From: Leeuwenhoekiella palythoae
Lineage (GTDB): Bacteria; Bacteroidota; Bacteroidia; Flavobacteriales; Flavobacteriaceae
NCBI RefSeq assembly: GCF_900130045.1
Contig: NZ_FQXT01000002.1
Location: 124,001 to 188,000 of the forward strand
DNA: 64,000 nucleotides
Direction: 5' to 3'
Below the pieces are notes generated by a model. It had not been told where the DNA came from and did not search any database. It saw only the letters and a list, made by a program, of their open reading frames with translations. Positions 50,785 to 52,832 of the stretch are shown piece by piece (position 1 is the first letter of the stretch; every line of letters starts with the position of its first letter). The position numbers were made by a program, and so were the translations under genes.

Positions 50785-51702
50785 TTGGCAAAAACCATAC
50801 GCATAGGTACCCGCGATAGCGAACTAGCGCTTTGGCAGGCACACACCGTACAGAATCAATTGGAATCTTTAGGTTATAAAACCGAGTTGATCTCGGTAAA
50901 ATCAACCGGAGATCTTATCCTTGACAAACCGCTTTACGAACTAGGAATAACCGGTATTTTTACCAAAACTCTTGATGTTGCGATGATCAACGGCGACGTA
51001 GATATCGCGGTGCATTCTATGAAAGATGTTCCCACGCAACTCCCAAAAGGTATTGTGCAAGGAGCGGTTTTACCTCGCGCTGCTACCGAAGATATTTTTG
51101 TTTTTAAAGGTGATAAAAACACTACATATTTTTCAGATTCTGTTACTATTGCAACGGGAAGTTTACGCCGCAAAGCGCAATGGCTTAATAAGTACCCAAA
51201 GCATCAGGTGGTTGATCTCCGCGGAAACGTGAACACCCGCCTGCAAAAGGTAGCCGATAATGATTGGGCGGGAGCGGTGTTTGCAAAAGCTGGTTTAGAA
51301 CGCATTAACTTGAAGCCCGAAAATCACGAAGTTTTAGACTGGATGATTCCTGCTCCGGCACAAGGCGCAATGGTGATCGCTGTGATGGACAATGATGCTT
51401 TTTGCAAAGAAGCTTGTGCAAAACTCAATGATGCTGATGCAGCGCTAACCACAAAAGTAGAGCGCGAATTTCTTCGGAAATTAGAAGGAGGATGTACCGC
51501 TCCTATCGGTGCGATCGCAAAAATTGAAGACGACCATATTCATTTTCACGGCGCACTTTTCAGTCTGGATGGAAGTCAAAAATTGGAGATTAAAGAACGT
51601 ATTCCCGTTTCAGAATGTCAGGATTTTGGTGCGCTATGTGCTTTAAAAATTCTGGAAGAAGGCGGCCGCGAATTGATGGAAGCTATTAAGAAAGAAATTT
51701 AA
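50785..51702 (+). CDS. hemC: Porphobilinogen deaminase (hydroxymethylbilane synthase), TTG start
   Basis: 305 residues starting at TTG 50785, the only start that gives the family beginning AKTIRIGTRDSELALWQAH; the next ATG would remove the active-site front. Motifs: ISVKSTGDLILDKPL, DIAVHSMKDVPTQLP, GNVNTRLQKV and the cofactor cysteine in LEGGCTAPIGA that holds dipyrromethane. It joins four porphobilinogen units into hydroxymethylbilane, the HemD substrate. The gap to hemA is three bases, so translational coupling with hemA would help the weak TTG start. Confidence 0.95.
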   Translation: MAKTIRIGTRDSELALWQAHTVQNQLESLGYKTELISVKSTGDLILDKPLYELGITGIFTKTLDVAMINGDVDIAVHSMKDVPTQLPKGIVQGAVLPRAATEDIFVFKGDKNTTYFSDSVTIATGSLRRKAQWLNKYPKHQVVDLRGNVNTRLQKVADNDWAGAVFAKAGLERINLKPENHEVLDWMIPAPAQGAMVIAVMDNDAFCKEACAKLNDADAALTTKVEREFLRKLEGGCTAPIGAIAKIEDDHIHFHGALFSLDGSQKLEIKERIPVSECQDFGALCALKILEEGGRELMEAIKKEI

Positions 51703-51704
51703 AA

Positions 51705-51738
51705 CCCTCATCCTCAATCCTTCTCCCAAAGGAGAAGG
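51705..51738 (+). repeat. Left inverted repeat of the DUF559 element
   Basis: Begins CCCTCATCCTCAATCC and continues as the hairpin CCTTCTCC-CAAA-GGAGAAGG (8-bp perfect stem, 51719-51738). It starts two bases after the hemC stop codon and ends nine bases before the DUF559 start codon. Confidence 0.75.
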
Positions 51739-51746
51739 AAGCCCTT

Positions 51747-52799
51747 ATGAAAAGAAGCAATCACATAAAACTTGCTCGCTTGCTTAGACAAGACTCAACC
51801 GAAGTAGAAAAGGTGCTTTGGGAATTGCTTCGTGATCGTAAAATAAACGGACTAAAATTTAGAAGACAACATCCTCTTAAAGGTTATATCGTTGATTTTT
51901 TCTGTTATGAATTAAAACTAGTCATCGAGTTGGATGGTGGTTATCATAACCATCCAGAGCAAAAGGAAAAGGATGAACTGAGAGATTTACATCTGAAAGC
52001 TCTTGGCTACAAGGTACTGCGTTTTTCAAATACAACAGTTTTAAAAGAATCTAAGGTTATTACAGATACAATTGCAGAGTATAAAAATTCTAAAGTGAAT
52101 CGTTCCCCTCCCCTCTCCGTCGGGAGAGGGGCCGGGGGTGAGGGAAAAAGCATTCTTTCCACAAAAAAACTCACCTCTGCCCAGAAGAATTTGATCTTGG
52201 GCGCTGGTTTTTCGGTGGTTGAATATGATGCGATTCAAATTGAATTTCTGGATGTTGATTTTCCAAAAAACTTAGAAAATCTGATTTTCACGAGTAAAAA
52301 TGGGGTTCAGGCTTTTTTAAAGATGCAACCCGATCTGAATACCGAATCTTTTAGCTGTTTTTGCGTAGGTTCTAAAACCGAAAGTTCCTTGATCAAAAAA
52401 GGTTTGAATGTGGTAAAAACTGCACAAAATGCAGCAGATTTAGCTGATTTTATCGTGAAAAATTATAAAAATGCGCATTTTTCATTCTTTTGCAGTGTAA
52501 TAAGAAGAGACGAACTTCCAGATTATTTAACTAAAAATCAAGTGTCTTTTGAGGAAATCGTTTGCTATAAAACAAAAAGTAATCCGCAAGAATTTAAACA
52601 GGAATTTGACGCCGTTCTTTTTTTCAGTCCGTCTGGAGTACAAAGTTTTTCGGCTGTAAATCATTTTAAGAATATGCTTTCGGTTTGCATTGGTAACACC
52701 ACTGCTGCCGAAGTTCAAAAACATACCCAAAACGTTACCGTTGCCAATACCACTACCATTGAGAGTGTTATTGCGCGGGCGGTAAAGGCTTTAAACTAA
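51747..52799 (+). CDS. hemD: DUF559 nuclease domain fused in frame to uroporphyrinogen-III synthase
   Basis: 350 residues in one frame. Residues 1-~112 are DUF559, a Vsr-like PD-(D/E)XK fold: KFRRQHPLKGYIVDFFCYE (Asp50), LVIELDGGYHNH (Glu61, Asp63, His67), LGYKVLRFSNTTVL. Residues ~121-133 (PPLSVGRGAGGEG) are the translated right inverted repeat. Residues 134-350 are complete HemD (KSILSTKKLTSAQKNLILGAGF; LIFTSKNGVQAFL; AVLFFSPSGVQSF; CIGNTTAAEVQ), which closes uroporphyrinogen III from hydroxymethylbilane. No ATG occurs between the repeat and HemD; a GTG (52095, Val117) could start a shorter form. Normal HemD is ~215-250 residues and starts at the MKSILSTKK-like segment. The hemC-hemE order shows that this is the operon's own hemD. 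Confidence 0.93.
   Translation: MKRSNHIKLARLLRQDSTEVEKVLWELLRDRKINGLKFRRQHPLKGYIVDFFCYELKLVIELDGGYHNHPEQKEKDELRDLHLKALGYKVLRFSNTTVLKESKVITDTIAEYKNSKVNRSPPLSVGRGAGGEGKSILSTKKLTSAQKNLILGAGFSVVEYDAIQIEFLDVDFPKNLENLIFTSKNGVQAFLKMQPDLNTESFSCFCVGSKTESSLIKKGLNVVKTAQNAADLADFIVKNYKNAHFSFFCSVIRRDELPDYLTKNQVSFEEIVCYKTKSNPQEFKQEFDAVLFFSPSGVQSFSAVNHFKNMLSVCIGNTTAAEVQKHTQNVTVANTTTIESVIARAVKALN
52110..52144 (-). repeat. Right inverted repeat of the DUF559 element
   Basis: The hairpin CCCCTCTCC-GTCG-GGAGAGGGG (9-bp perfect stem) is followed by CCGGGGGTGAGGG, the reverse complement of a CCCTCA-type terminus. It is read through in frame, coding for part of the linker between the nuclease domain and HemD. Confidence 0.75.
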
Positions 52800-52800
52800 C

Positions 52801-52822
52801 CTCGGGTGCGCTCGAGACGACA
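52801..52822 (+). repeat. Short interspersed palindromic repeat before hemE
   Basis: CTCGGGTGCGCTCGAGACGACA directly follows the hemD stop and contains the stem CTCGGG/CTCGAG (one G-T pair) with the loop TGCG. It resembles the widely scattered CTCGACTGCGCTCGAG-type repeat of many bacterial genomes; here it is squeezed into the 33-bp gap between hemD and hemE. Confidence 0.5.
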
Positions 52823-52832
52823 AGAAACTATT

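Follow-up and report, generated by a model that had tools for sequence, protein, structure and literature searches.

DUF559 nuclease units with inverted tag-hairpin ends lie in frame in conserved genes and may form a family of homing-like elements

Introduction

In Leeuwenhoekiella palythoae (genome G000), a short unit separates hemC from hemD within the stretch of 64,000 nucleotides analysed here (contig NZ_FQXT01000002.1; hereafter the window). It carries a gene of the DUF559 family between two inverted repeats, which raises the question of whether such a unit is mobile and, if so, what moves it. To our knowledge, selfish DNA in essential genes is usually thought either to need splicing, as with introns and inteins, or to be very short, as with Rickettsia palindromic elements (RPEs).

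Results

Anatomy of the unit between hemC and hemD

The gene order in the window was hemA-hemC-unit-hemD-hemE, with the following features:

50785-51702, + strand: hemC, the left neighbour, with its stop codon two bases from the unit
51705-51738, + strand: left terminal inverted repeat; tag at 51705-51717, hairpin at 51718-51739 with a 9-bp stem and a CAAA loop
51747-52799, + strand: DUF559-HemD fusion ORF, 350 amino acids
51765-52079, + strand: DUF559 nuclease domain, Vsr / I-Bth0305I-like fold (Pfam, alignment, AF2, Foldseek)
52111-52144, - strand: right terminal inverted repeat; hairpin at 52110-52131 with a 9-bp stem, tag at 52132-52144
52146-52799, + strand: hemD, its own start codon missing, read through from DUF559

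The repeats described in the initial annotation were recovered: 51705-51738 and the reverse complement of 52111-52144 agreed at 25 of 34 positions, and transitions accounted for eight of the nine differences. This was the best 34-bp inverted match between the flanks, and none of 300 dinucleotide-keeping shuffles equalled it (highest, 23). Each arm also held the inner hairpin that had been proposed, its 9-bp stem being formed by 51718-51726 and 51731-51739 on the left and by 52110-52118 and 52123-52131 on the right. The outer 13 bases of each arm constituted a C-rich tag (CCCTCAYCCYCRR). Against the end model R1 (see below), the left repeat scored 18.6 bits (E 0.0047) and the right repeat, on the minus strand, 14.3 bits (E 0.063).

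DUF559 was indeed the gene inside the unit (Pfam E 3.6e-36), but its frame was not confined to it: the ORF continued through the right repeat into hemD, so that Pfam placed DUF559 at residues 7-111 and HEM4 at residues 149-342 of one protein. The ATG of hemD, present at the empty sites of relatives, was lost in the window. No transposase gene was detected in the unit by a Pfam scan. The AAAA runs on both sides were ruled out as a target-site duplication, because the right-hand run is hemD coding sequence and occurs at the empty site of genome G006 as well. A pattern search for the hairpin in the L. palythoae genome stayed near chance (52 matches versus 33 in reversed controls). Solo repeats were few there, R1 giving one at E 0.025 and none at E 0.001 under stricter filters. 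Directly after hemD, positions 52797-52826 of the window read TAACCTCGGGTGCGCTCGAGACGACAAGAA, similar to a CTTCGAGCGCAGTCGAGAAG-type repeat.

The DUF559 nuclease

The predicted fold of the DUF559 domain (AF2 pLDDT 86.7) was matched by Foldseek to 3hrl, a putative endonuclease of Neisseria gonorrhoeae, and to the catalytic domain of I-Bth0305I (E 1e-4, TM 0.67/0.76), and less closely to Vsr (1vsr, TM 0.61). A sequence profile matched 3r3p, which is I-Bth0305I according to Foldseek, at E 8.5e-6, and 3hrl was matched by profile as well. Among the positions invariant in 41 diverse sequences were T18, E21, W25, D50, E61, D63, H67, D76 and R79. A DUF559 protein of Caulobacter has been reported as Vsr-like (PMC12907096), and a DUF559 gene of Thermosynechococcus has been placed in the EDxHD family (PMC9403480).

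Between the window copy and that of genome G011, dN/dS was 0.09 for DUF559 (5.5 and 13.5 changes), 0.07 for hemC and 0.21 for hemD; judged by these substitution rates, the nuclease is under purifying selection. One copy, in leuS of genome G014 (locus L054), had lost several otherwise invariant residues together with recognisable ends, with the frame kept.

Tag-hairpin ends around DUF559

Strong hairpins, defined by a score threshold of our own, flanked DUF559 on either side, at a distance of no more than 130 bp, in 44 of 91 distinct stretches, compared with 0 of 539 displaced control pairs. In an independent cross-phylum set, the counts were 38 of 77 and 2 of 376 controls, with three of the 80 loci left uncounted for their short flanks. 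About half of the DUF559 copies thus passed the two-sided criterion, and the repeats were not placed at random relative to DUF559. The common end anatomy was a C-rich tag followed by a hairpin, as in CCTATCCCCAGCCCTTTCCGAAGGAAAGGGA.

To build model R1, we picked 22 of 71 usable ends for their equal length. The tag consensus in these aligned ends was TCCTCNCCCCAA, which differs from the GTAG or CGTC tag of REP / RAYT systems. Their stems varied by double changes between C-G and U-A (28 cells), with G-U in none of 176 cells; as the ends had been selected for having hairpins, the pairing percentage itself is no evidence. Double changes of this kind without G-U explain the transitions and point to DNA rather than RNA, and the earlier suggestion of RNA-level selection with G-U pairs was rejected on these counts. 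When R1 was applied to 63 DUF559 loci (286 kb), from which the donors of model ends had deliberately been left out, 38 contained at least one match anywhere in the locus, compared with no R1 end in 30 Y1_Tnp loci (94 kb). A stop-free design of the ends was also considered and not adopted, the excess of open frames being mild (110 of 132 versus 74% in shuffles).

Seven free-standing DUF559 copies (L045, L047, L050, L078, L079, L081 and L094) belonged to another clade and had a different terminal repeat type, for example CTCCCCTCCTT..AAGGAGGGGA plus a second hairpin; most of these proteins start with ...IHN.K.L. This suggests that end type and nuclease clade co-vary.

Host genes and phylogenetic spread

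DUF559 was matched 100 times among 135 loci. After removal of identical cores and cores shorter than 85 amino acids, 88 distinct cores were retained, a set enriched for long frames, which were fetched on purpose. They were located in leuS (31, in or beside the editing domain), metH (11 and 2, at two sites), recG (10), ileS (2), the C-terminus of hisD (2) and the N-terminus of hemD (14, one relabelled from free-standing by hand), and 16 were free-standing. In the independent set of 80 loci from many phyla, DUF559 lay in ORFs of at least 300 amino acids in 39. Hosts in this set included hsdM, in records labelled Elusimicrobiota, Thermodesulfobacteriota, Kiritimatiellota, Verrucomicrobiota and Pseudomonadota, and hsdR, in Cyanobacteriota, a Methanophagales archaeon, Kryptoniota and Bacteroidota. 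Because all nine hsdM and hsdR records come from metagenome-assembled genomes, the phylum given to each, like the archaeal label, depends on binning. Their inserts, from nine phyla, formed one loose clade (support 84), joined by a hemD copy and a free one; type I restriction genes are themselves subject to frequent transfer. Further hosts were valS, ileS (at two sites), leuS (also at two sites), recG, metH, ispF, chorismate synthase, adenine deaminase, methylmalonyl-CoA mutase, an Lhr-type helicase and a His_biosynth gene read as hisF. All host names are our reading of Pfam domains and motifs, in several cases (e.g. L334) of motifs alone.

The frames were open through the unit. Host domains besides DUF559 were found in 35 of 36 fused proteins, the exception being L294. 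No intein family was detected in the 36 proteins (Pfam, E 1e-3 or 1e-5), and an intein reading was rejected for want of a self-splicing Hint / intein domain. An Rfam scan of five loci, of which L042 and L284 carry in-frame units, gave no group I or II intron. With the host genes keeping their frame and no splicing domain found, the nuclease appears to stay in the host protein. An AF2 model of an HsdM-DUF559 fusion built on five sequences was too weak to be used (mean pLDDT 59.6); the repeat-coded stretches were disordered in it.

Three further observations were made on these proteins. An Akkermansiaceae hsdM (L293) contained, besides the DUF559 unit, two short in-frame repeat-like stretches (NPGPSPTGRGG and PSPHPSPTGRG), apparently end-only insertions. 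The metH of genome G027 (L046) carried, as read by eye, another in-frame insertion, SISSASLSTRHAKLDSASQENT, resembling an RPE without nuclease. In a Gracilibacteria copy (L287), one stop codon interrupted the DUF559 frame under table 11, possibly a TGA that this group reads as an amino acid.

Filled and empty sites within the genus

The hemC-hemD junction was surveyed by a hemD search over 60 relatives, in which spacers and ORFs were read. Within the genus, the unit was present in six of 13 genomes (G000, G002, G005, G007, G010 and G011) and not in the other seven. At leuS, eight genomes were filled and five empty, and metH was filled, by sequence, in G004 alone (1 of 13). Empty alleles thus occurred within the genus at all three sites, whereas the initial annotation would have been refuted by repeats placed at random relative to DUF559 together with a junction that all relatives share and no empty site; neither was the case. 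Each of the 13 genomes gave a single leuS match, so the interrupted LeuRS was the only one found in eight of them.

The empty hemC-hemD sites of G004 and G006 retained a left-tag-like stretch (CCCTCATCCTCGATG and CTCATCCTCAAAATG, respectively), scar-like left ends as expected of loss. In metH of G004, the unit replaced about 30 bp of the native loop, and the insertion was therefore not clean. No target-site duplication was evident at hemD, leuS or metH. The hemC-hemD spacer of G008 (L013) held a different ORF, by its look a NUMOD4/HNH nuclease. The empty leuS loops of G000 (L155), G004 (L156), G008 (L151) and G003 (L152) contained other repeat-like sequences in frame, AATTCAGAATTCAAAATT in three of them and TCACTTCGAGCGCAGTCGAGAAG in G003, and this permissive loop seems to collect several repeat families.

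Signs of lateral movement

The tree of the 88 DUF559 copies followed the insertion site, with nine label changes for eight labels (mean of shuffled labels 51.1; 0 of 200 shuffles as low). At phylum depth, site labels mixed more, 22 changes being required for 12 labels in a tree of 79 of the 80 loci (L287 left out). The leuS site of one genus carried three insert lineages: a single clade was rejected by an AU test (p 0.012), for which the group was named after the tree had been seen and six long-branch rows were left out beforehand.

Synonymous divergence was compared between inserts and their surroundings. The leuS inserts of G001 and G009 differed at 6 of 453 bases (dS 0.031), and the lowest of 73 flanking windows gave 0.345, indicating that the insert moved, or was converted, recently. 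Elsewhere, the dS of this pair was 0.553 in upstream leuS, 0.92 in hemE and 1.52 in hemC; since the leuS flanks are less diverged than hemC and hemE, ordinary recombination at this locus could account for some of the signal, and co-conversion could likewise lower the divergence of the flanks. The insert of G001 and G005 had a dS of 0.385 versus at least 1.054 in 68 windows, and that of G002 and G010 had 0.185 versus at least 0.356 in 71 windows. In all six same-type pairs, insert dS lay below both leuS flanks, with a small gap in some (G005-G006, 0.979 versus 1.133 and 1.405). By trees and divergence, insert lineages in the family-level set mostly keep one site, at which species have shared the insert more recently than the gene around it. 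Occupied and unoccupied alleles occur at one site, and from the divergence we infer that the units probably spread laterally between species.

Solo and paired repeats without DUF559

R1 matches were found in 15 of 25 genomes, that of L. palythoae included, and, across the family, in 100 of 397. By presence lists compiled by hand, repeats occurred in 80 of 142 genomes with strong DUF559 and in 20 of 255 without (units' own ends counted, kinship uncorrected), and in 33 of 70 genomes with strong Y1_Tnp versus 67 of 327 without. Their occurrence in 20 genomes without strong DUF559 argues against a strict or simple cis-acting pair. Repeats without strong DUF559 were present in G297, which had 15 R1 matches and no DUF559 match, and in G031 and G205. 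Genome G035 had at least ten equal-scoring repeat copies and one DUF559, in leuS, and the five solo copies read differed from the ends of that unit. The link between DUF559 and the repeat is therefore not one-to-one.

Several solo or paired ends were themselves in frame. In L176 and L201 they lay in a class I tRNA synthetase, by our reading ileS, in L189 and L202 at two places of a single urocanase gene, in L196 in an epimerase and in L174 at the start of a PRA isomerase.

Explanations for the unit

The initial view of DUF559 with inverted tag-hairpins as a transposase-free unit was borne out in many phyla and accompanied by signs of mobility. In the alleles compared, the units occupy conserved and for the most part essential genes, in frame, either internally or at an end, and come and go between relatives. 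We think it probable that the unit in the window belongs to a large family of homing-like elements that are translated, do without splicing and have DUF559 between inverted tag-hairpin ends. We infer that DUF559 drives the movement, and the ends may take part as follows. The nuclease would be translated as part of the host protein and would cut an allele lacking the unit, whether that allele enters by DNA transfer or is its recipient; the occupied allele would then be the template for a repair that copies the unit in. The hairpin ends would identify the nuclease's own sequence or else assist repair; in the protein, they would act as flexible Pro/Gly/Ser linkers with which the host enzyme tolerates the extra domain. 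Rare jumps would reach new sites, and internal deletion would leave end-only copies, hence solo repeats. Such end-only derivatives possibly include the repeat beside ycjD of Escherichia coli. A bolder reading, which we offer tentatively and consider somewhat doubtful, would make the units a new class of mobile DNA in bacteria and archaea. Their Vsr-fold nuclease would recognise the tag-hairpin ends of its own unit and would both home and transpose, and the ends, serving at the same time as protein linkers, would allow it to reside in essential enzymes without being spliced; end-only derivatives would explain long-known orphan palindromic repeats, including the multi-copy GC-rich repeat beside ycjD.

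The signs of mobility weigh differently on the rival explanations. DUF559 could be a domesticated domain, inserted in a few genes in ancient times, inherited vertically with patchy loss and retained for a host benefit, for example in mismatch repair or defence. Purifying selection, site-specific lineages, the in-place decay of the G014 leuS copy with its frame kept and the Vsr-like character reported for the Caulobacter protein (PMC12907096) would be in line with this, but vertical descent alone leaves unexplained why inserts are so much lower in dS than their flanks when species are compared. The presence of three insert lineages at one site in one genus, and the same anatomy across many unrelated genes and phyla, further speak against domestication, which we regard as improbable. 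Similarly low is the likelihood we give to DUF559 being a passenger, caught between two repeats that are spread by another enzyme such as a REP-associated HUH transposase. Repeats without DUF559, solo or paired and some of them in frame in the class I tRNA synthetase and urocanase, the genomes with repeats but no strong DUF559, and some association with Y1_Tnp all favour this reading; however, the association with strong DUF559 was the stronger one, similar ends surround DUF559 in distant phyla, and R1 ends were absent from the Y1_Tnp loci. On the last count, a RAYT was rejected as the mover of the units; for the solo repeats, it may still be one.

True transposition would have DUF559 act on the hairpin ends of its unit in the way TnpA-REP handles REPs, with insertion at new sites and no homing. 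An inverted tag plus hairpin is indeed the arrangement of REPtrons, and paired ends without DUF559 look like non-autonomous copies. Likewise, metH of G249 had units at two sites with closely related DUF559, and at pstB-pstA of E. coli, filled and empty alleles of an end-only copy differed by 92 bp flanked by AACCGTGT, an 8-bp direct repeat. That repeat could equally be the scar of a deletion, though, and lineages that mostly stay at one site, without evident target duplication at leuS, metH or hemD, make transposition without homing rather unlikely, if somewhat less so than domestication or a passenger role.

Relation to known systems

The homing-like element that we favour shares features with several described systems. 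EDxHD (Vsr-fold) homing endonucleases such as I-Bth0305I resemble it in catalytic fold, sequence profile and patchy, site-specific spread, but are described as mobile-intron endonucleases (PMC3943268), whereas no splicing element was detected with DUF559 units. The ShiLan domain of phage methylases is likewise an insertion that can be read in the host frame, apparently unspliced and with a homing distribution; it differs in that its nuclease is of the HNH type and out of frame and that its host is a phage methylase, and the main text of its report does not use the term inverted repeat (PMC11855218). WHO elements of yeasts also home without protein splicing, but with an intein-like nuclease, by replacing the 3' end of FBA1 and in eukaryotes, as their report has it (PMC7282813). 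REP / RAYT systems (REPtrons) have tagged inverted hairpins around a nuclease gene, and dispersed repeats thought to be non-autonomous; their enzyme is an HUH (Y1) tyrosine transposase and their tags are GTAG/CGTC (PMC3733652), in contrast to the Vsr-like nuclease and CCTCACCC-type tag of the DUF559 unit. RPEs, which the end-only copies resemble, are palindromic DNA in frame in conserved genes, but measure 105-146 bp and are presented with no mention of a nuclease in the text available (PMC2229807), whereas the unit encodes DUF559. No published description of in-frame DUF559 units or their ends was found in the open-access literature.

A whole nuclease domain is housed in aminoacyl-tRNA synthetases, methionine synthase, RecG and restriction enzymes, and the working protein apparently keeps it. 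Should this be confirmed, it would point to a general way in which proteins gain inserted domains during evolution, would give a function to a family whose name is still DUF559, and would supply a candidate source of orphan palindromic repeats in E. coli and Bacteroidota, with ycjD of E. coli K-12 as a test bed open to any laboratory.

The repeat beside ycjD in E. coli

In E. coli, sapF and fabI are separated by ycjD, a DUF559 gene, and a sapF-ycjD-fabI query was matched over at least 80% in 3359 of 5426 genomes. A 56-bp repeat beside ycjD, which we take to be probably 'box C', was present in 5375 of the 5426 genomes, at a median of 16 places. It resembles the unit ends in having a weak match to R1 and an adjacent DUF559 gene: E ranged from 0.0006 to 0.015 in seven of eight E. 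coli loci holding the repeat and was 0.096 in L442, and R1 gave no match in four loci without the repeat (L443, L444, L446 and L450). It differs in being intergenic, as seen in the five E. coli repeat loci fetched, and beside ycjD it was seen only downstream. The sapF-fabI interval was rejected as a clean empty site, efflux genes being located there in two fetched genomes without ycjD. The number of repeat places had a median of 19 in 30 rows with a near-full-length best match, taken as the ycjD-side copy, and of 6 in 17 rows with a partial match, a hand-compiled comparison (3 of 50 rows left out) that is confounded by strain lineage and was not relied on.

Between wcaK and wzxC (L446-L449), a stretch of about 450, 558, 654, 750 bp or longer was observed, growing in steps near 96 bp; it is a repeat array of another type, at a spacer where other genomes have the end-type repeat.
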